From positions 1 to 35,091 of IMG/VR virus record IMGVR_UViG_3300043411_003042: a stretch of DNA of 35,091 nt; one strand, given 5' to 3'. The DNA is from a virus. Below, piece after piece: positions 5,565 through 18,418 of the stretch (position 1 is the stretch's first letter; each line of letters opens with the position of its first letter). The notes under the pieces were generated by a model. The model had not been told where the DNA came from and did not search any database. It was given only the letters and a program-made list of their open reading frames with translations. A program made the position numbers and the translations under genes.

Positions 5565-7031
5565 TTAATCCTTCCACCAAATATTATCTTCTTTCCAAGT
5601 ACGGTTTAAAATTATATCCATATAGTGACTTTTCTTTAAATCATGTTTTTCATATGCCGCTATTCCCTTGACGCCATCCAAATAATCCTGACGTATTTCC
5701 TTAACTTTACCAGCTGTTAATCCAGTGCGACTAACTTCTGGTAAATTGTATTCCTTGGATTCCTTACGCCCATTCTTTGTCGCTTCAGACATACTCATCC
5801 CATCCTTTAATCTTCTATCAAGAGTAGGCTTAGAAACACCGCACAACGCTGAAATTTGAGTTAGCGTCATCTGCTCGCCATTATATTGGTAATGCTGTAC
5901 ACGCCCCTGAGAAGACTTGACAGGAACATAAGTGTCATCCTGCCAAGTTCTTCCCATAAGAACATCAGCAACAATATGAATGCTGACATCTAAGTCCTTA
6001 GCAATTTGAGCGTTACTTAAATTAGCAACTTTTTTAAGCTGTCTAATTTCCTTCACATTAGCCCACGAAAGCGTAGCCCGATTAGAAGGAACATCAGCCC
6101 TATGATTTACAGACTCCACATCCCCAGCAGGAATTAACATCGCATCCTTCGGATTCATCTGACACTTGATGATGCGGTGATAGAGAGTTTGCCGTGATAC
6201 CTGACAGCGCTCGTCAGAAGCCCAATCGCTAATGCTCTTTTCTTCATCAAAAATTTCAACGAGCCACTTTTCAACATCCTTCCAATGTGGAACTGTCAAA
6301 TCGTTCTGTCTTAAAGTAGCATCATCAATGTTGCGGTAGAAATCCTTGTAAATGCGGTACTTGCGAAGTAAGCGCATTTCGGGCGCACTATCTTCATACA
6401 TCCAGTCCATCAATTTTTTAATCGTAGCAGCGCCAGAATAAACAAGTTGGAAGTAAGTTCCACCTTTGACTTTAACAGGCCGCATATAGCCGTAAGGCTT
6501 GCCAATGATAGGTTCTAGCGTTGCCTTTAATCCAAGAAGATACTGTTCAGGGCCGCAGAAGTTGACACCGATGTATTTACTTTTTTGCGATGGATGCTTA
6601 ATCAAATGAATGCAGCCGTCCCCATCAAAGAAACCTCGAACATAGTGAGACATGAATTCAGACGGATAGTCAGTAGGCCACTCAGCCGTCCACGACTTGC
6701 GAGGGTGAATGTGAAGACGCATCAAATCTTGAGCGATTTTAAACGAGTTGATGCGCCAAACGCTTAGTTCAGCTTTGTTATATGTTTTTCCATTCTTAGC
6801 AAGGGATGTTGTGGCTGGAACAATACCTATAGGGCGATTACTTCCAATCATGTTGTTGAATGATTCAAGTATGTGGCGGTCTTTTGAATGAAGATTCATT
6901 GAAAGTCCGTAGCTATTGGCCCTGTCAACGTATTTGTGCAAACATCCGTCAGCAGCAATAAAGCCAAGCATATAAGCCATTTCTGGGGTCCAAGTAGAAA
7001 AAAATTCTTCGTTGAGTGTGTATATTCTCAT
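5565..7031 (-). CDS. LAGLIDADG homing endonuclease with C-terminal helix-turn-helix repeats
   Basis: The 488-residue protein carries two LAGLIDADG motifs: Y-M-L-G-F-I-A-A-D-G (residues about 20-29) and Y-V-R-G-F-F-D-G-D-G (about 130-139). Both keep the acidic residue that binds the catalytic metal, so this looks like an active monomeric double-motif nuclease. After the catalytic part (to about residue 235) come several helix-turn-helix or NUMOD-like segments, at about 260-290, 330-365, 385-415 and 430-485; such modules help recognise the target in intron- and free-standing homing endonucleases. A TATAAT box ends 9 nt before the ATG, so it has its own promoter. It sits between the capsid gene, with its terminator, and a diverged copy of the capsid 3' end. 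This suggests a free-standing homing endonuclease that invaded the capsid gene end. It is not inside an intron or intein here. Confidence 0.9.
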   Translation of the reverse strand: MRIYTLNEEFFSTWTPEMAYMLGFIAADGCLHKYVDRANSYGLSMNLHSKDRHILESFNNMIGSNRPIGIVPATTSLAKNGKTYNKAELSVWRINSFKIAQDLMRLHIHPRKSWTAEWPTDYPSEFMSHYVRGFFDGDGCIHLIKHPSQKSKYIGVNFCGPEQYLLGLKATLEPIIGKPYGYMRPVKVKGGTYFQLVYSGAATIKKLMDWMYEDSAPEMRLLRKYRIYKDFYRNIDDATLRQNDLTVPHWKDVEKWLVEIFDEEKSISDWASDERCQVSRQTLYHRIIKCQMNPKDAMLIPAGDVESVNHRADVPSNRATLSWANVKEIRQLKKVANLSNAQIAKDLDVSIHIVADVLMGRTWQDDTYVPVKSSQGRVQHYQYNGEQMTLTQISALCGVSKPTLDRRLKDGMSMSEATKNGRKESKEYNLPEVSRTGLTAGKVKEIRQDYLDGVKGIAAYEKHDLKKSHYMDIILNRTWKEDNIWWKD

Positions 7032-7146: not shown

Positions 7147-8007
7147 TTAGGCAACAATAATTCTCGAAACGCTGTAATCATTTATCACACCAAAGCCCAC
7201 TTCTTCGAAGACAACCCATCCCAACCGAAGTTTCTTGGGGTCGTCAGCAGGGAGAACAGTGATGTCTTGTCGAACAGGCATTGCGCCAACGAACTGAGCA
7301 GGTGCGAGAACATACACAGCGTTCTTTGGAACCATCGTAGAAACGTGGATGTCCGCAGAGTAGATGTGTCCGTAAAGACCTGTCATCAAGATGTCTCTTT
7401 GGGTTGCTTCGTCAAAGAAGTCCTTGCCCCAGTTTCGAACATCGTTGTAGCGTTGTGGGTGCATAATCACCTTTGCGCCGATAAGTTCGTGCTCTTCAAT
7501 CAGCGTAAGAGCAAGGTTGATGTTTTCTGGCTGAAGCGTTCCAGACACAGCGATGCTGTGGTCTGAAGGAACAGCTGCGTTGATAACTTTGAAAACTTCA
7601 ACATCTTCTTGTCGTTGCAGAGAGTCTTTAGCTCGAACTTGTGCTCGGTCCACAATGTAGTATCGTCGTTGATTAATTTCGTTAATCTTGATTTGTGGGT
7701 TGGTAGCCAACTCAATAACAGGGATTAACAACTCTTCAGCTTCAACTACGTGAGTTGGAACCATTCCGCGCTTTGGAATGACATATGACTTAACAGCCAC
7801 ATCTCTTTCGTAACGAGGAAGAGCGCCTTGTGGTAGTTCGTCTACCATAAGTAATTTTCGTCCAATTGCTTGATACATCAAGCTAGTTTTGATGGGCTCT
7901 ACCATTGCTTGCGCAAGAGCTACACGTCCATCGGCGGTGTCGAGCGCCATTGCAATAATAGCTTCTCGTTGCTCATTGGTGTTTCGATTGTTTCTTACCA
8001 TGCTCAT
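7147..8007 (-). CDS. Major capsid protein (HK97-fold type)
   Basis: The 286-residue protein has the properties of a short HK97-type major capsid protein. It has a helical N-arm (residues ~10-60), a segment rich in beta-strand with P-R-Y-E-R-D and V-K-S-Y-V-I-P-K-R-G, a central region with H-P-Q-R-Y-N-D-V-R, and a C-terminal V-G-F-G-V-I-N-D...S-R-I-I-V strand. Context supports this strongly: it is the last gene of a TerL-portal-protease/scaffold-decoration-capsid series and has a strong Shine-Dalgarno (GAAGGAGA) and a strong terminator, as expected for the most abundant virion protein. Codon use looks more GC-rich than that of the surrounding unknown genes. A diverged copy of its last ~23 codons is found at 5287-5388 beyond a homing endonuclease. 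Identification is by pattern and context, since no search was possible. Confidence 0.82.
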   Translation of the reverse strand: MSMVRNNRNTNEQREAIIAMALDTADGRVALAQAMVEPIKTSLMYQAIGRKLLMVDELPQGALPRYERDVAVKSYVIPKRGMVPTHVVEAEELLIPVIELATNPQIKINEINQRRYYIVDRAQVRAKDSLQRQEDVEVFKVINAAVPSDHSIAVSGTLQPENINLALTLIEEHELIGAKVIMHPQRYNDVRNWGKDFFDEATQRDILMTGLYGHIYSADIHVSTMVPKNAVYVLAPAQFVGAMPVRQDITVLPADDPKKLRLGWVVFEEVGFGVINDYSVSRIIVA

Positions 8008-10789: not shown

Positions 10790-13333
10790 TTAAATAATCC
10801 ATGAAATAGAAGAATAGATATCTCCATTTACTTCTTTAATTTCGGAAACAGATATTGTTCCACAGTCATAACAATATGACCGTCCTGTGGAAGCTATTTT
10901 GTTAACTTCTCTATTTCCACATCCTGGACAAACGAATCCTACTGGAAGAATCTTTTCAGCTTTTCTGTCAAGCTTGTTTCCAAGTTGGGCTACTCTAATA
11001 AGAGTATCTGGGCTTGTCTTCCATGAAGCCATCATCATTGGCGCAGTTCCACCAGGACCAGGCGCAGCACCAACAGGGGCTGGGCTACCAGGTGCAGGAG
11101 CTGTAGCGGCTCCTAATCCCATGTCTCCACCAAGCTCTAATGAAGGGTCTTCCATCATAGGCTCTGAATCGTTTGCATCTTCTTTTCCTTCATTTGGTTT
11201 GACTTTTGCAGTGAATTCAAATGATAACTGTGCGTTACAAGAATTACAATTTCCTTCTCCGTTAGCAATATCAACATCTTCGCTACCGCATTGTGGACAA
11301 ACCGTACCCCAAGGCTTTTTGGTGCCGGGTTCTGGCATGTCGTCAATATTGCCTGGTTCTGCTTCAGGATTTTCAGCAGTAGGAGCAGTGAAAGAAGAAA
11401 CTCCAAAGCCATCGGCTCCACCAGTTAAATCTCCCATTGGTGCTGGTGCTCCAGCTGGTGGCGCACCCATAACTCCTGCTGGCGCTTGTGCGAATCTGTT
11501 TAAAATTTCTTGTCGTTTTGCAACTCTAAGATTTTTTATAGACTCACTCATAATAACGCTTGGGCCTTCTACAGCATCAACACCAATTTGTTCTGGAACA
11601 TCGGGTTGTATCTCTGATGGAGCATCAGCTGTAAAAGTTTTTCTTACGGTTGATGTAACAGAAGCACTAACGGTGTCTCCATTGATGTTTAAGTCTGTAA
11701 ATGAGAAAGTAGATGGGTCAACTGTGTAACCATTGGATGTCATTATGTCTATTGCTTTATCTCGGAAAGCTGATTCAAAATTTTCATCCTTGGGGTCAAG
11801 ACCAACGTCACTAACCGTGCATTCTAGTCTTTTGGTGCTGGTTCTTTCGTCAGTCACTTGAATTGCTGATGTTTTAGTTGTTGACGCAGAAACAATCTTG
11901 TTGATTAATTTTTCAGCAGCATTAGGATTAGACACTAGTCGCTTAGCAGCTGTAACAATACTTCTGCTGGAATAATTTCCTGCTTCTGAATAATCCGCCA
12001 GCCAACCTATTACATTTTCATACACACCTTCTTGTGATGCAAACCGATTTGCTCCCCAGAAATCTTTTCTAGCTCTAACTTGCAATCTTGACTCTCTCAC
12101 TGAAGCTGAGCGAGCAACTTCAATATCAGTCAACAAATCAGTTTCGTCTACATTACTTAAAGCGATGACCAATTCTTTTGGATGTGCTGACAATTCGTCG
12201 GCAGAGTTGGCAAGAGCAAACAATGCTGTTTTAATGTGGTCTCTTAAAGGTTGTTCAGTTTCAGTTTCAGCTATAGTTGCTAAAGCAGCTTTGTATCTGT
12301 CAGATTTAGAAACTGTTTTTCTAAGTAGAGATGGTTCAATGTTGTTGTTGTCGTCAATTTGTGCTCTAACCAATCGAGTAACTGATTGAATTGCTTTGCT
12401 TACTTCTGATGTAACAATATGCAAACACTCACTAATATCTGCCGCTGTTACGTTTTCATTCACAATAGAACCTAAAGCGTCTAAGATAGCAGCTTCGGTG
12501 GCTATTTCTGTTGAAGAAAGTTTCCAGAAATCGTTTCTTTTAGCTTCAACTCTTCGTGTTTTATCGCCAAGGTGAGCCAATTGAATTAATTCAACAAAGT
12601 CATTTCTTTCTGCAAGAGATTTTGTTGTTTCAACTACTTCTTCTGGAGTAACTCTAGCGGCAATAACTGCTTTGCTAAGAGCTTCTATGGAAGAACTTGT
12701 TACCAATCCCACATCTCCTGGTCCATAATTATTGCGAACTTGTTCAATTTGTTCTTCAATAACATCGGTTGGGTGGCCTCTTCTAGCATCATTGAGAAGA
12801 TTTTCTCTTACATCAATTTCATTGTTTTTTCTAGAATACAAACCAGCATGTTCTCCTAAAAGATTTTCTTTCACAATATTTTCACTTCCAGGTCTTAAAT
12901 TATTTTTACTTAATTCCCGTTCTTTGATATCTTGCTCTGAATTTGTTCTGTTATATCGACCAGCTTTGTCTTCAAGAAGTCGCTCTTTGACATCTTCGTC
13001 AGTGCCAGTTCGCACTGCTTCAAGTTGCTCTTCTCGGGTAGTGTCATACTCGTGTGATGGTTTCCAATTTGCTGTGCGAGTAAAATTCTGAAAATCGGCT
13101 AACAAAGATGCCGCAACACGTGGGCCGTCTTCTGACGCAATTAGAGATTTGTGCTCTTCAGTAAGTTGTGGGTCAAAATCACGAACAAGTTGTTCATGAT
13201 AAAACGCTTTAATAGTGCCATCGGCTGAAAGTCGAAGCTCGTGTCCTGATTTATCGGACACTTTCACTTCTTGCTCCATTACCGCCGCTTCTCGCTTATT
13301 GCGAGCTTGAAAGAACTGCTTGAAAAAGTCCAT
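10790..13333 (-). CDS. Nested in-frame start: candidate separate scaffold protein (847 aa)
   Basis: Within the 1416-aa gene, Met570 (ATG at 13333) is preceded by GAGGAAA at 13341-13347 with an ideal 7-nt spacer; this is one of the best Shine-Dalgarno sites in the window and better than that of the full-length start. The encoded piece starts MDFFKQFFQARNKREA and includes the helical repeats and both C-terminal zinc ribbons but not the protease. The break falls right after a Gln/Pro/Gly-rich linker, a natural domain boundary. This mirrors nested scaffold genes such as lambda Nu3 inside C. That the start is used in vivo is inference. Confidence 0.6.
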   Translation of the reverse strand: MDFFKQFFQARNKREAAVMEQEVKVSDKSGHELRLSADGTIKAFYHEQLVRDFDPQLTEEHKSLIASEDGPRVAASLLADFQNFTRTANWKPSHEYDTTREEQLEAVRTGTDEDVKERLLEDKAGRYNRTNSEQDIKERELSKNNLRPGSENIVKENLLGEHAGLYSRKNNEIDVRENLLNDARRGHPTDVIEEQIEQVRNNYGPGDVGLVTSSSIEALSKAVIAARVTPEEVVETTKSLAERNDFVELIQLAHLGDKTRRVEAKRNDFWKLSSTEIATEAAILDALGSIVNENVTAADISECLHIVTSEVSKAIQSVTRLVRAQIDDNNNIEPSLLRKTVSKSDRYKAALATIAETETEQPLRDHIKTALFALANSADELSAHPKELVIALSNVDETDLLTDIEVARSASVRESRLQVRARKDFWGANRFASQEGVYENVIGWLADYSEAGNYSSRSIVTAAKRLVSNPNAAEKLINKIVSASTTKTSAIQVTDERTSTKRLECTVSDVGLDPKDENFESAFRDKAIDIMTSNGYTVDPSTFSFTDLNINGDTVSASVTSTVRKTFTADAPSEIQPDVPEQIGVDAVEGPSVIMSESIKNLRVAKRQEILNRFAQAPAGVMGAPPAGAPAPMGDLTGGADGFGVSSFTAPTAENPEAEPGNIDDMPEPGTKKPWGTVCPQCGSEDVDIANGEGNCNSCNAQLSFEFTAKVKPNEGKEDANDSEPMMEDPSLELGGDMGLGAATAPAPGSPAPVGAAPGPGGTAPMMMASWKTSPDTLIRVAQLGNKLDRKAEKILPVGFVCPGCGNREVNKIASTGRSYCYDCGTISVSEIKEVNGDIYSSISWII

Positions 13334-15040
13334 ATTTTTATTTCCTCGGGTCTGGTTAATTGGTTTGATGCTAGATTGGGGTTTTGAAACCACCATTTGT
13401 GTTTGAGTGTCTTTTTGAACACCCAGTGTTTCGGCAAGATTCATTATTGATTCTGCCAATTTTGTTATCTGCTTATTGTTATAAGCAGATTGAGCCAACT
13501 CTGATGGTGCAGAATTGTTTTGCGAAACAGAAGCTGTTATCATCCTGTCTGCATTTACTTCTTCATTTTCATCATGAGCCCAAACTATTCTTGGGCCTTT
13601 GGTGTTGGCAAAAATACCACCACCAAATCCCATAGGCATTCCTGTAAATGCCTGATTTTGCGTTTGTGGTGCGCCTTGTGGTGCTCCAACTTGTTGCGAT
13701 GGTTGTGGGCCGAGAGCACGTCCAACGGCTCCAGCTTGAGAGTAGTCATCCTGTGCCACATTTGACCCAGGTTGAAGTTGCTGTTGTGGTTGCATAGAAC
13801 CTTGATTCATTGGCTGTTGACCAGAATCTCCAGTTTCAACTCCATCATCAATCATGTCTTGCATGGTGGATTGTAAATCCGCCATAGATTTGGTAATTTT
13901 ACCAACGTGTCCTAAATCAACATTGTCTTTTCTTGCAAAAAGATTCATTACAGCAACTTCTAAGAAATTAAGAGCAAGATTTAACATATCAAGTATGTTT
14001 AACCCTGCGTTTCCTTCAATTCCAAGGAATTTTAAAATATTTGCAACAGTTGTGTTGTTGCCTGCACCATCAGCTGCTAAAAGTTGTCCACCGACAAGAG
14101 TTCCAGCACTTTGTGCTACTCTAATAGCATCTTTTGTAGTGTCTTGTGCTTTTCTGAGACAATTTTCATATGCTCTGCGAATTACAAAATCTTCTGGAGT
14201 CGAAGTACTAGCTAATGCAATTGTGGTTCTGAGTGATTCTGCTTTTCTGTCTAGCGATGCTGCTTTTTCAATAATATCATCAACATCGTATAATTCTTCA
14301 ATCATGCAACTGTCAAACGCACCGTCGCCAACAACAGATAACTCAATGAATTTAATTCCGTGGTTTTTCTCGTAAACTTTTTTACCAGTTCTTGGATGTG
14401 TCTTTCCTTTGTATTTCTTAAGACAATCGCAATATTCTTTTTCTGTTGTGGCCTTGTTTCCACACTCAGAACAAGTTCCACTTTGTACTTGGCAACCCAT
14501 AGACACATCTTTCATGTACCCAACGCGAATACCACGAGCAATTTCAGGATATGCTTCTTCGTCTACTATAAATGTGCAATATACACATTTTTCCTTATCA
14601 TCCCATTCTGCATAAACAACCATTCCTTTGGCTTGTTCAATGTCATCGTTTTTGTGATTCGTATAAATTGGAACCCCTTCAAACGTTTTGTAAGCAGGCA
14701 TTTTGTTGTTTTTTTGGTCAACTACTTCGGATGTTAATTCTGATTCACTAAAATAATCACCATTGGCATTTGCTACATCAGCATCTATTGCTCTTGCTCG
14801 CACCCAAAGCAATTTTCCTTGGTGTTTTTTCATTGCATCAACAATGTCAAAATCTTTGTATTTTTTAAATACATCATCTGCATCTGCATAAAGGCTTAAC
14901 AAACCTTCTTTTGCAGCAACCCTAACAGCAGAATTCGTAGCCATAGCAAGTCTTGCATTTCCAGCACTTTTTCTGTCATTGCTATTGACCAAGGAACTTA
15001 TGGTAATAAATCCACCTGATTTTCCTCTTTTCTCCATCAT
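10790..15040 (-). CDS. Prohead protease-scaffold fusion polyprotein with zinc ribbons
   Basis: The N-terminal ~250 residues of this 1416-residue protein fit a phage prohead serine protease. A segment A-Y-K-T-F-E-G-V-P-I-Y-T-N-H leads to a candidate catalytic His129. G-Y-M-K-D-V-S-M-G-C follows with candidate Ser180, and then F-I-E-L-S-V-V-G-D-G-A, the usual motif after the active site. A Cys cluster (about residues 190-206) is inserted after the Ser. Then come a Gln/Pro/Gly-rich linker (~400-480), an internal Met570 with its own ribosome-binding site, a helical repeat region (~670-775), further helical domain(s), and two C-terminal zinc ribbons (C-P-Q-C...C-N-S-C and C-P-G-C...C-Y-D-C). By analogy with lambda C/Nu3, the downstream part is probably the internal scaffold, made both fused and separately. 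The mature head should lack most of it. Start at the first of two consecutive ATGs. Confidence 0.75.
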   Translation of the reverse strand: MMEKRGKSGGFITISSLVNSNDRKSAGNARLAMATNSAVRVAAKEGLLSLYADADDVFKKYKDFDIVDAMKKHQGKLLWVRARAIDADVANANGDYFSESELTSEVVDQKNNKMPAYKTFEGVPIYTNHKNDDIEQAKGMVVYAEWDDKEKCVYCTFIVDEEAYPEIARGIRVGYMKDVSMGCQVQSGTCSECGNKATTEKEYCDCLKKYKGKTHPRTGKKVYEKNHGIKFIELSVVGDGAFDSCMIEELYDVDDIIEKAASLDRKAESLRTTIALASTSTPEDFVIRRAYENCLRKAQDTTKDAIRVAQSAGTLVGGQLLAADGAGNNTTVANILKFLGIEGNAGLNILDMLNLALNFLEVAVMNLFARKDNVDLGHVGKITKSMADLQSTMQDMIDDGVETGDSGQQPMNQGSMQPQQQLQPGSNVAQDDYSQAGAVGRALGPQPSQQVGAPQGAPQTQNQAFTGMPMGFGGGIFANTKGPRIVWAHDENEEVNADRMITASVSQNNSAPSELAQSAYNNKQITKLAESIMNLAETLGVQKDTQTQMVVSKPQSSIKPINQTRGNKNMDFFKQFFQARNKREAAVMEQEVKVSDKSGHELRLSADGTIKAFYHEQLVRDFDPQLTEEHKSLIASEDGPRVAASLLADFQNFTRTANWKPSHEYDTTREEQLEAVRTGTDEDVKERLLEDKAGRYNRTNSEQDIKERELSKNNLRPGSENIVKENLLGEHAGLYSRKNNEIDVRENLLNDARRGHPTDVIEEQIEQVRNNYGPGDVGLVTSSSIEALSKAVIAARVTPEEVVETTKSLAERNDFVELIQLAHLGDKTRRVEAKRNDFWKLSSTEIATEAAILDALGSIVNENVTAADISECLHIVTSEVSKAIQSVTRLVRAQIDDNNNIEPSLLRKTVSKSDRYKAALATIAETETEQPLRDHIKTALFALANSADELSAHPKELVIALSNVDETDLLTDIEVARSASVRESRLQVRARKDFWGANRFASQEGVYENVIGWLADYSEAGNYSSRSIVTAAKRLVSNPNAAEKLINKIVSASTTKTSAIQVTDERTSTKRLECTVSDVGLDPKDENFESAFRDKAIDIMTSNGYTVDPSTFSFTDLNINGDTVSASVTSTVRKTFTADAPSEIQPDVPEQIGVDAVEGPSVIMSESIKNLRVAKRQEILNRFAQAPAGVMGAPPAGAPAPMGDLTGGADGFGVSSFTAPTAENPEAEPGNIDDMPEPGTKKPWGTVCPQCGSEDVDIANGEGNCNSCNAQLSFEFTAKVKPNEGKEDANDSEPMMEDPSLELGGDMGLGAATAPAPGSPAPVGAAPGPGGTAPMMMASWKTSPDTLIRVAQLGNKLDRKAEKILPVGFVCPGCGNREVNKIASTGRSYCYDCGTISVSEIKEVNGDIYSSISWII
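12717..13040 (-). repeat. Imperfect ~20-residue helical repeats in the scaffold region
   Basis: On the protein level the segment has about five imperfect units with the pattern [DI]-[VI]-[KR]-E-[RN]-x-L followed by a Gly/Asn/Arg-rich turn: D-V-K-E-R-L-L, D-I-K-E-R-E-L, I-V-K-E-N-L-L, D-V-R-E-N-L-L, then V-I-E-E-Q-I-E. It opens with R-E-E-Q-L-E-A-V-R, which also occurs in the protein encoded at 18456-18947. The repeats are diverged in DNA, so they are old. Confidence 0.6.
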
Positions 15041-15211: not shown

Positions 15212-15964
15212 TTAAATTAAATTGTCAAATTCTTCTATGCGTTTATGACCCAAATTAAAATATTCGTTTAATTTTTCAATACATATCCAATTTCTGTTTA
15301 GTTTTTTTGCAGCTATAGCGGTAGTGCAGCTTCCGGCAAACATATCTAGCACCGTGTCATTTTCTTGGGAGTAAACTTGAATAGCCCATTCTGGTAATTC
15401 AACAGGGAAGGCGGCACAATGTTTTGCTAAACCAGCTTTGGAAGTCCACGTTTCTCCAATGACACCCCTTTGTGTCATTTTCCTATCGTTTACAAATTCA
15501 ACGTTTGAGCCATTCTTTTTTCTAAAAGTCCACACATGTTCGTAATCAAAAACTGGTCTGGGATGTTTGTTGCAAACAAAAGGGATACCCATTTTTGCAA
15601 ATTGTTTTCTCCAAATACGAGTAGCCTGTAAATCCATTTTCGCCATTTCAACTCCCCATTTAAAATAATTTATAGATGCGGGATAACATGCGGGGACATC
15701 AGAATCATAAAATCTATTACCACTATTAAAATAATCACCAAAATTAAATACTGCATATCCTCCTCCTTTTAAAATACGATTTGTTTCCAGAAAAACGTTT
15801 TGCATCATTTCGATGTAATCATCATATGAAATAGTTTTTTCATATTCTTTATTTAAATAATATGGAGGAGATGTTACAATAAGGTCAATAGAATTTTCGT
15901 CTATTTGTTTCATTATATCTAAACAATCACCTTCGTAAAGAGTGTTAATATTCAACATTAACAT
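15212..15964 (-). CDS. DNA methyltransferase, beta-class N6-adenine/N4-cytosine type
   Basis: The 250-residue enzyme has the beta-class order: catalytic motif IV T-S-P-P-Y at residues 31-35 first, then the AdoMet-binding motif I D-M-F-A-G-S-C-T-T at about 207-215. S-P-P-Y fits N4-cytosine or N6-adenine transfer; the target cannot be read from sequence. Motif I is normally D-P-F-x-G-S-G-T-T; here Met and Cys replace Pro and the second Gly, which is unusual but keeps the loop. Length is near the minimum for solitary phage methyltransferases and no restriction partner is near, so protection against host restriction or a regulatory role is likely. The gene sits between portal and protease genes with terminators on both sides. 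A TATAAC box lies 7 nt before the second ATG (15958), so the real start may be Met3. Confidence 0.85.
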   Translation of the reverse strand: MLMLNINTLYEGDCLDIMKQIDENSIDLIVTSPPYYLNKEYEKTISYDDYIEMMQNVFLETNRILKGGGYAVFNFGDYFNSGNRFYDSDVPACYPASINYFKWGVEMAKMDLQATRIWRKQFAKMGIPFVCNKHPRPVFDYEHVWTFRKKNGSNVEFVNDRKMTQRGVIGETWTSKAGLAKHCAAFPVELPEWAIQVYSQENDTVLDMFAGSCTTAIAAKKLNRNWICIEKLNEYFNLGHKRIEEFDNLI

Positions 15965-15965
15965 T

Positions 15966-15971
15966 GTTATA
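15966..15971 (-). promoter_or_regulatory. -10-like box before the methyltransferase
   Basis: TATAAC (5 of 6 matches) on the minus strand lies 7 nt before the ATG at 15958 and directly after the portal terminator. This suggests a separate, nearly leaderless message starting at Met3 of the annotated protein. Confidence 0.4.
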
Positions 15972-16010
15972 CAAAAACAAGCCGCATGTTTAAATGCGGC
16001 TTGTTTTTGT
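15971..16010 (-). terminator. Strong intrinsic terminator after the portal gene
   Basis: A perfect 17-bp stem (15971-15987 with 15994-16010) has a 6-nt loop, a GCCGCAT core and A/T-rich arms that make it symmetrical. It lies 20 nt after the portal stop codon. Confidence 0.9.
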
Positions 16011-16030: not shown

Positions 16031-18418
16031 TTAAATATAAACAGATGAGCCCATATGTTGTCCAGCACCCAGAAGTCTTCTAATTGTTTGCATGATAACT
16101 TTTAAAACTTCTTCAGAGTGTTCGTTTAATTCACTTTCTGTAAATCTTAAAACAGTCCACCCTTGTGTGGCTAATAAAGAATCACGTTTGCGGTCTTTTG
16201 CGATTTTCTCTGGATTGTTATGATATATTTCTCCATCTGCTTCTAAGCCCAATTTAATAGCTGGTATAGCGGCATCTAGTTGATATTCTAAAGAAGGTCC
16301 AGCTAAATATTGTGCATACCATGCTAATGGTAATCCAGCTTGCATCAATATTTTATATAATTTTTGCTCTAATGAAGTAAATCGGTATGTTTGCTTTGTG
16401 TCACCTTTTTTGGCAGCTATTCTTGTCATGGCATCACCACCAAGAGATTTGTCTAATTCTTGTAATTGATAAATAGCCAATCTGTTCATTGGAGTACAAA
16501 ACGGACCACCATCTGCTGGACCAATTGCCAATTGTTCTAATATTCCTTCTGATTCCATAGGGATAGGTCCAACCATCCCTCTTCCTGTAACCGGAGCAAT
16601 GCTTTCCAGATATGCTCTATGGGCGCTACTTATGATTTTTTTACTTGCGGTTCTTATGATTTTTTCGTTTTCACAAGATGCTAACTGCACATCATATATA
16701 TCTCCACTTACACAAGACGCGAATCTATAATTACCTTCCCAATCAGTGCTGGCCGCTGGTGCTAATCCTGGCATGCCTCCCATATCTGGTGAACCTAGCG
16801 GAGATGTTGGGCTTTCAGGGGTAGAAATATTTGGTCCACCGGGCATCCCAGGTAGAGCGCCTCTAAATCCTGTTCCCATACCACCGAATCCATTTGTAAT
16901 GTCAGTGTTCATCAAGTCTGGTGAAGAAATAAACGAAGAACCTTGTTCAAAACGAAGTCGTTCAACTTCTTGGTCATATGGAAGTCCAAGAGCTTCAACC
17001 ACAGACTGATTTGAAACAATGCCAGCTTGATTAGCCGCAAGTAGTGTTTGCAACTTTCCAGTATCATCACGCAACTGTAGGTCATCCCATTTTACAGTTG
17101 GATAAACATACTCTATTTGCCCTCGCTTTCCTTCTGTTGTAAATCCATTCCATATAGCAACAGGCTTGTAAAGATGCTCTTCCATCCAAAAAGCGACTTC
17201 TTCTCTAAACCTTTCTAATCTTTTTGCCATCGTAAGTAAGCCTACTTGAGCATTGCTGTATGATGGTCCTTCGCCATTGATAATAGCTTTGTTTAACATT
17301 AAGCCATCAATAATGTCTTGGTTTATGTTTTCATACTCTTGTGATAGCTGTAGTATTTTACCACTGGCTCCCACATAGTCGAATTCAAACGCATGGTGAG
17401 TTACAATAGTAAGTAGAGGGTCATTTGCTAAAGACGTTAATTCGTCTTGTGCTTGCATCAAATCTTCTTCTGTTGCAGGTCGGTCTTTATCTCCAACTTT
17501 AACAATTTTAACTGGTATGATATGTCTTTCAGCAACCAACCAGTTTGCTTGTCTAATTTTATCTTTATAGGCTAGTGTTTGAAACAGCCTTCTTAACAAA
17601 GAAGTTCCGAATGGTTGCCAAGGCATTCCACCTCGTTTAAAATGGTAGATACATTCTTGAGAAAAATGAATAGGTTGACCGCTTTGAATCAATTTACGCA
17701 TTTCTGGCATCATAGAATTATAAAGTTTTTCAGGTTTCTTTTCTTGAACCACTTTCTTCATCATGTCATCAGGAATGTAGAAATATTCTGGTTCTTGGTC
17801 TAGCATCGCTGGATGAACTTCTATATGGTCTGGATTTAAAACAGATAAGTTTTTCCAACTTGCGCCTTCGTGATTGCATTGTTCTCCAGTATCTGGATTA
17901 ATATTTAATCCACCGCACGTTTCACATTCAATAGATGCCAAAACAAAACAGTCGCCCCGAAGGTGATACTCTTGTGATATTTGAGGGGTTTTTTTAGTGA
18001 TTTTTAATTTTCTGTTTAATTTCTCAAAATAATCTTTCACATAAGCATTTGCGCATTCCAGAGTAAAACCACTTAATGGAAAGTCTGTGTAAAATTCTAT
18101 ACCAGCTGCAACTTTCGGTTCGTTGTCCACCCACCACTGAGCCCAAAGATAGACTTCTTTTCTGTTGTTGGGTATTTGCCATGATGACGCAGTGAGCCAT
18201 GGTGCATAAAACGATGGTGGTCCGATAGTTGAGTTTTGACCACCGCCAGAATATTGTCCTGTTCTTTTTGTAACTGTTCCGTCTGTTCTAGCTGTTCTTA
18301 TGCTCGCTAACGGTTGTTGGTTTAAGTCTTCTTGCGCTGTTTTAATACCCATTGCGCTGTTGGCAGCAGTTTTAATCGCTACATCTAAACCTTCAATCTT
18401 TTTATCTTTATTAGCCAT
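16031..18418 (-). CDS. Portal protein with C-terminal DUF559/Vsr-like nuclease domain
   Basis: Residues ~60-560 of this 795-residue protein look like a phage portal: W-A-Q-W-W-V-D-N-E-P-K-V-A-A-G-I-E-F near the N-terminus, H-L-R-G-D-C-F-V, F-K-R-G-G-M-P-W-Q-P-F-G-T-S-L-L-R-R, and a long helical part with I-N-G-E-G-P-S-Y. This would be the dodecameric DNA channel at the capsid vertex. A short Cys/His cluster (C-E-T-C-G-G...C-N-H) is inserted at about 165-185. Residues ~678-788 match a DUF559/Vsr-type PD-(D/E)xK nuclease: T-S-L-E-Q-K-L...Y-Q-L-D (Asp715), G-L-E-A-D-G-E (Glu726, Asp728), H733, D-R-K-R-D (742-746) and G-W-T-V-L-R-F-T (Arg758). All expected key residues are present. The N-terminal 45 residues hold three I-[KR]-T-A segments. 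Only a GGTGA lies before the ATG. Confidence 0.85.
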   Translation of the reverse strand: MANKDKKIEGLDVAIKTAANSAMGIKTAQEDLNQQPLASIRTARTDGTVTKRTGQYSGGGQNSTIGPPSFYAPWLTASSWQIPNNRKEVYLWAQWWVDNEPKVAAGIEFYTDFPLSGFTLECANAYVKDYFEKLNRKLKITKKTPQISQEYHLRGDCFVLASIECETCGGLNINPDTGEQCNHEGASWKNLSVLNPDHIEVHPAMLDQEPEYFYIPDDMMKKVVQEKKPEKLYNSMMPEMRKLIQSGQPIHFSQECIYHFKRGGMPWQPFGTSLLRRLFQTLAYKDKIRQANWLVAERHIIPVKIVKVGDKDRPATEEDLMQAQDELTSLANDPLLTIVTHHAFEFDYVGASGKILQLSQEYENINQDIIDGLMLNKAIINGEGPSYSNAQVGLLTMAKRLERFREEVAFWMEEHLYKPVAIWNGFTTEGKRGQIEYVYPTVKWDDLQLRDDTGKLQTLLAANQAGIVSNQSVVEALGLPYDQEVERLRFEQGSSFISSPDLMNTDITNGFGGMGTGFRGALPGMPGGPNISTPESPTSPLGSPDMGGMPGLAPAASTDWEGNYRFASCVSGDIYDVQLASCENEKIIRTASKKIISSAHRAYLESIAPVTGRGMVGPIPMESEGILEQLAIGPADGGPFCTPMNRLAIYQLQELDKSLGGDAMTRIAAKKGDTKQTYRFTSLEQKLYKILMQAGLPLAWYAQYLAGPSLEYQLDAAIPAIKLGLEADGEIYHNNPEKIAKDRKRDSLLATQGWTVLRFTESELNEHSEEVLKVIMQTIRRLLGAGQHMGSSVYI

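Follow-up and report, generated by a model that had tools for sequence, protein, structure and literature searches.

The window analysed here, a stretch of 35,091 nucleotides that forms IMG/VR virus record IMGVR_UViG_3300043411_003042, codes for a phage portal protein that seems to end in a nuclease, and it raises the question whether such a domain truly belongs to the portal and what it would do there. An earlier note, made from the letters alone, had described a portal fused to a DUF559/Vsr-like PD-(D/E)xK nuclease, and profiles, structure prediction, fold search and relatives all bear this out. The nuclease region that it had placed at 16055-16387 on the minus strand corresponds to residues 678-788 of the 795-aa ORF (Table 1), in which no frameshift or internal stop occurs. 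The same single frame recurs in relatives, 79 contigs in all, so that a frameshift or a separate nuclease gene is ruled out.

Table 1. Features of the portal-nuclease locus and of related genes in the window
Feature	Coordinates	Strand	Remarks
1416-aa protein with head-maturation-protease domain	10790..15040	(-)	conserved downstream neighbour of the fusion, 71 loci
N6/N4 DNA methyltransferase gene	15212-15964	(-)	between portal and protease, behind the probable terminator
Inverted repeat then T-run, probable intrinsic terminator	15971..16000	(-)	directly 3' of the fusion gene; read from sequence
Portal-nuclease fusion gene	16031..18418	(-)	795 aa, single uninterrupted frame
DUF559 / REase_MTES_1575 PD-(D/E)xK-like nuclease domain (predicted), residues 678-783	16070..16387	(-)	profiles, models, relatives
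D742-x-x-R745-D746 block	16181..16195	(-)	alignment of relatives
E726-x-D728-G-x-x-x-H733, active-site block	16220..16243	(-)	alignment of relatives
Asp715, predicted metal ligand	16274..16276	(-)	94/94 aligned rows
Helical middle segment, residues 559-677	16388..16744	(-)	weakly conserved, pN/pS 0.34
Gly/Pro-rich linker, residues 499-558	16745..16924	(-)	pLDDT 24-50
Portal core, residues 66-498	16925..18223	(-)	phrog_16240 and AlphaFold model against solved portals
Terminase large subunit (TerL), 1015 aa	29140..32187	(-)	Walker A intein; RNase H-type nuclease motifs intact

As judged by profiles and a predicted structure, residues 39-492 of the protein are a phage portal. The profile phrog_16240 matches residues 39-435 in the PHROG search (6.7e-37), and Portal_Mu of Pfam matches residues 244-476 with 28.2 bits against a cut-off of 23.9 (E 1.5e-6). 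An AlphaFold model of the fusion protein, built on a 34-sequence alignment, shows pLDDT values of 75-90 over much of the portal core and 81-87 over most of the nuclease domain. When the whole model was compared with the PDB by Foldseek, 140 matches had E<=1e-3, and the best 50 of the 140 are portals or portal-complex entries. The core follows the order wing, stem, clip, wing, crown; in the model, a stem helix, the clip alpha/beta element and another stem helix are followed by a long wing helix, the crown helices and the linker, the register of crown and stem being judged by this order of elements and by low TM-scores in a model with a pTM of 0.45. The full protein gave no match to a MuF domain in the Pfam and PHROG scans, as a MuF-type portal fusion or polymorphic toxin would be expected to. 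The nearest portal from a known phage is gp14 of Bacillus phage G, of the phrog_16240 group, with 28.5% identity over residues 48-496. Both proteins have a Gly/Pro-rich tail after the core, but the phage G portal, of 648 aa, has no DUF559 domain.

The C-terminal end matches DUF559 (PF04480) over residues 681-779 with 39.3 bits (cut-off, 20.6) and passes REase_MTES_1575 narrowly, with 38.5 bits against 38.2. The domain E-value in the window's own record is 5e-13, and the DUF559 gathering cut-off is also passed by 21 of 21 relatives. With the last 240 residues of the model as query, the top Foldseek PDB matches are I-Bth0305I, Vsr and 3hrl (E 1.3e-3 to 6e-3), values that are modest because only about 100 of these residues are ordered. 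The best structural match is I-Bth0305I (3r3p), at E 1.3e-3 and a TM-score of 0.74 by target length; the family profile also finds 3hrl (6.9e-10) and 3r3p (9e-6) by sequence. The model is thus consistent with the PD-(D/E)xK-type fold of DUF559 and, 3r3p being the top match, with the EDxHD catalytic-domain fold. The label "Vsr-like" stands for the fold and falls for the subfamily, since the Vsr mismatch endonuclease profile TIGR00632 scores only 17.4 bits against a cut-off of 97.85. The whole-domain profile match, the fold and the EADG...H...D...R...RF motifs are shared with DUF559/COG2852-type proteins such as Neisseria NGO0050 (3hrl) and Caulobacter VsrA, the latter of which induces SOS in vivo when the strain has lost its cytosine methylase (PMC12907096). 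NGO0050 and VsrA are free-standing proteins, whereas here DUF559 is appended to a structural protein of the virion as its tail. I-Bth0305I has the fold in common with the fusion, but the fusion has no DNA-recognition module that Pfam could find and is immobile, being fixed in its clade.

The residues named in the earlier note (D715, E726-x-D728-G, H733, D742-R-K-R-D746 and V-L-R-F-T at 756-760) all lie at the numbers given, and the alignment contains every conserved residue of DUF559, namely D, E-x-D-G, H, D..R and R-F. Among 94-95 aligned rows, 62 of them distinct, D715, E726, H733, D742, D746, G753, W754, R758 and F759 are invariant except in one row split by an intein; at position 728, 92 rows have D and 2 have E. 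The split row, L076, is the sole exception at E726: its intein follows that residue directly (GVE/CLHPEQ...VVTHN/CDGDVWH, slashes marking its ends), so the active site would be complete only after splicing. Inteins favour conserved active-site codons. Profiles, models and about 80 relatives thus show a portal whose C-terminus bears, on a long flexible tether, a nuclease of the DUF559 type (PD-(D/E)xK, EDxHD-like). With its pattern of conserved residues, it is most likely an active enzyme that depends on metal.

To assess the distribution of the fusion, IMG/VR was scanned three times, with alignments, and bacterial and archaeal genomes once; narrow-pattern scans recovered the nearest relative only. 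Portal and DUF559 stand in one frame in 78 contigs besides the window, of up to 479 kb and including one bacterial MAG. These contigs are uncultured and mostly fragments, for which absence from the record does not equal absence from the genome. The fusion is present in all clade members that have the portal C-terminus on the contig, and the seven clade portals without the domain are cut off at a contig end. In one member, L051, a single in-frame TGA (7684-7686) found in this contig only separates portal and nuclease, and is either a real natural split or a sequencing error. Neither the portals of the phage-G sister group (L081, L083-L086, L129-L138) nor those of Tunturi_5 and Rctr197k carry the DUF559 domain; searches of the phage G record and of five sister-group records found no DUF559 anywhere. 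This distribution makes the fusion a shared derived character of a clade of uncultured giant phages. In INPHARED, no portal relative covered 80% of the query, and none of the DUF559 matches listed is named a portal; these matches fall in free-standing nucleases, in genes beside methylases, in helicases and in homing endonucleases. Among the BFVD matches listed, where many entries are unnamed, no portal is named.

Two giant contigs that carry the portal fusion, G017 and G018, also have a second, free-standing DUF559 ORF of 303 aa (G017:C1:222737-222967 and G018:C1:10384-10614). The bacterial MAG, of Armatimonadetes, holds the portal-nuclease gene within a phage-like stretch at about 1-530,500 of the 1,363,254 positions of JAFDWS010000002.1 (L087; G021:C5). 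This stretch spans at least 530 kb with a GC content of 0.52-0.56, and 22 tRNAs are predicted as an array in its 500-520 kb slice, among them one that has the anticodon CTA. Near 530.5 kb there is a sharp junction to bacterial DNA with a GC content of about 0.60, and no integrase is evident among the ORFs there; the contig represents either an integrated giant phage or a chimera.

Selection on the parts of the fusion was compared between the window and L002, which are 79% identical at best. At 0.085, the pN/pS of the nuclease domain matches that of the portal core (0.086), against 0.235 in the linker and 0.338 in the middle segment; with synonymous sites close to saturation, these values serve for comparison between regions and not as absolute figures. 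Core and domain distances, taken pairwise, are strongly correlated (r = 0.948; 0 of 5000 permutations), and the two trees have 20 of 28 splits in common. The equal pN/pS of domain and core, together with the congruent distances, thus points to one ancient fusion, vertically kept and under constraint, and the low value of the domain compared with the linkers suggests that activity, and not mere tolerance, is probably selected. A dead domain is ruled out by the kept residues and the pN/pS values.

What the enzyme would do depends on where it sits. In T4, the stem, wing and crown of the portal lie inside the capsid (PMC9958956), and in the modelled fusion the nuclease hangs from the crown end by a low-confidence, Gly/Pro-rich stretch of about 180 residues; with the linker after the crown and the crown inside the capsid, canonical portal topology would place the nuclease most likely in the lumen. 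A nuclease "on the DNA channel itself", as the earlier note had it, is thus probably inexact, since this topology would put the domain in the capsid lumen around the portal. Assembly of the ring would bring about 12 nuclease domains together on this crown side, where the tether would limit their reach. Their substrates at the packaging vertex would be DNA ends, flaps, nicks, mismatches or residual branches, dealt with while DNA is packaged or when the filled head is completed. A portal-tethered nuclease with a DNA-processing role in packaging or head completion is the most likely reading, at about even odds, of which we infer catalysis, substrate and timing; with slightly less assurance, a ring of tethered, active nucleases in the capsid might edit the genome at these stages, the portal itself being an enzyme.

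The precedents for this DNA-processing role come from T4. The resolvase gp49 (endonuclease VII), bound to the portal protein gp20, frees stalled branched DNA (PMC9958956; PMC10893049). Like the fusion, it is a DNA-processing nuclease at the portal, but it has an unrelated fold and is a separate, non-covalently bound protein that acts on motor-stalled DNA. T4 gp4, a REase-fold head-completion and virion nuclease required for packaging/morphogenesis (PMC7824862), is a second functional parallel, but it is a separate, TnsA-like protein. A search with the TnsA/gp4 family gave no informative match, and no control matched either. Up to half of the subunits of a portal can also bear GFP, a bulky domain, at their C-terminus (PMC9958956). 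Against a packaging role, debranching of incoming DNA would be topologically awkward from the lumen, and a lumenal nuclease beside the packed genome would need tight limiting; the lumenal position favours gp4-like processing of ends and structures over debranching at the entrance. Separate junction resolvases occur in some clade members, RusA in G011 and G019 and EndoVII in G013; RuvC and Hjc were looked for and not found. A role as sole junction resolvase is weakened accordingly, and resolvase duty would not be exclusive to the portal nuclease.

The lumenal position would also suit a virion payload, in which the adjoining prohead protease cuts the linker and about 12 free domains are ejected with the genome against host or competing DNA. 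The long flexible linker and the conserved protease-bearing neighbour beside the portal fit such a design, and weak profile matches point to DUF559-like nuclease tails in Hhe and ProA, two anti-phage proteins. We nevertheless consider it unlikely: no conserved cleavage site was found, the linker and the middle segment being the least conserved parts; a covalent tie to the portal over long evolution would be unnecessary; and there is no fixed methyltransferase to protect the phage DNA. Attack on host DNA at entry, as had been suggested, is disfavoured: a portal does not leave the capsid, and only a domain released from it by cleavage could do so. Slightly less probable still is a non-catalytic domain that does no more than hold DNA or scaffold within the head, for instance to sense a headful or to clamp the DNA end. 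Portals sense head fullness and the DUF559 fold binds DNA, both of which, with the lumenal position, would agree with this; yet every predicted catalytic residue is kept, beyond the DNA-facing surface, and the L076 intein lies exactly between E726 and residue 727.

The methyltransferase gene just downstream in the window, and the mycobacteriophage DUF559 genes that adjoin methylases, might suggest that host or rival-phage DNA without the phage modification falls to the portal nuclease and is thereby kept out of the heads. This we regard as improbable, since the methyltransferase occurs in none of the loci of relatives within the flanks examined and is a recent local insertion. N6/N4 methyltransferases were found in 6 and C5 methylases, the partner expected of Vsr, in 1 of 18 records, which may be fragments; several contigs of 296-476 kb, themselves possibly incomplete, showed neither type. 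This patchiness in the clade supports neither an obligatory restriction-modification partner, the pairing with the adjoining gene being rejected, nor Vsr-like repair of methylated cytosine.

That the domain takes over the headful cut from the terminase nuclease, as its inferred location on the packaging vertex might allow, is very improbable: all three acidic RNase H-type nuclease motifs (HLDPxKSSDYYT, ISYDQW and DDFxDAVAAA) are retained in TerL of the window and in the L002 homologue, and the portal domain therefore does not replace that nuclease. A Terminase_6C search gave no match. That the portal gene captured a selfish homing endonuclease is least probable of all, for although the nearest fold is that of the homing nuclease I-Bth0305I and inteins abound in clade portals and TerL, homing nucleases decay after fixation, and here a domain under constraint and co-inherited with the core is a fixed C-terminal part in all complete members, with no presence/absence polymorphism.

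The neighbourhood of the fusion consists of head morphogenesis genes, which agrees with a role in packaging. The protease-bearing protein has its protease domain near the N-terminus, together with a long unassigned region and zinc-ribbon-like motifs. The gene immediately downstream of that for the major head protein, at 5565-7031 (-), codes for a 488-aa protein with endonuclease and HNH matches; it is missing from the flanks of the relatives examined and is a probable homing-type insertion. The TerL intein of the window interrupts the Walker A motif (GRRSGK/MLDL...THN/SFLTA), and the L002 homologue has none. Large intein-like insertions also occur in the portals of L066, L076, L077, L078, L080, L082, L123, L125, L127, L146, L149 and L150; most of those scanned show LAGLIDADG and Hint matches, and some portals have two or more insertions.

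A portal joined to DUF559, or a nuclease domain in a portal, was not found in the literature, a search that most subscription papers lay outside. The parts are all known, and their combination seems undescribed in the literature and the annotated phages searched. Portals have so far been treated as passive conduits and pressure sensors; a conserved, intact nuclease in the portal would mean that the channel protein can have DNA processing built into it, as a covalent counterpart of the T4 association of resolvase and portal. The portal-DUF559 combination also provides a marker that defines the clade in metagenomes. If the proposed role is true, one portal enzyme would do what T4 needs separate proteins for.
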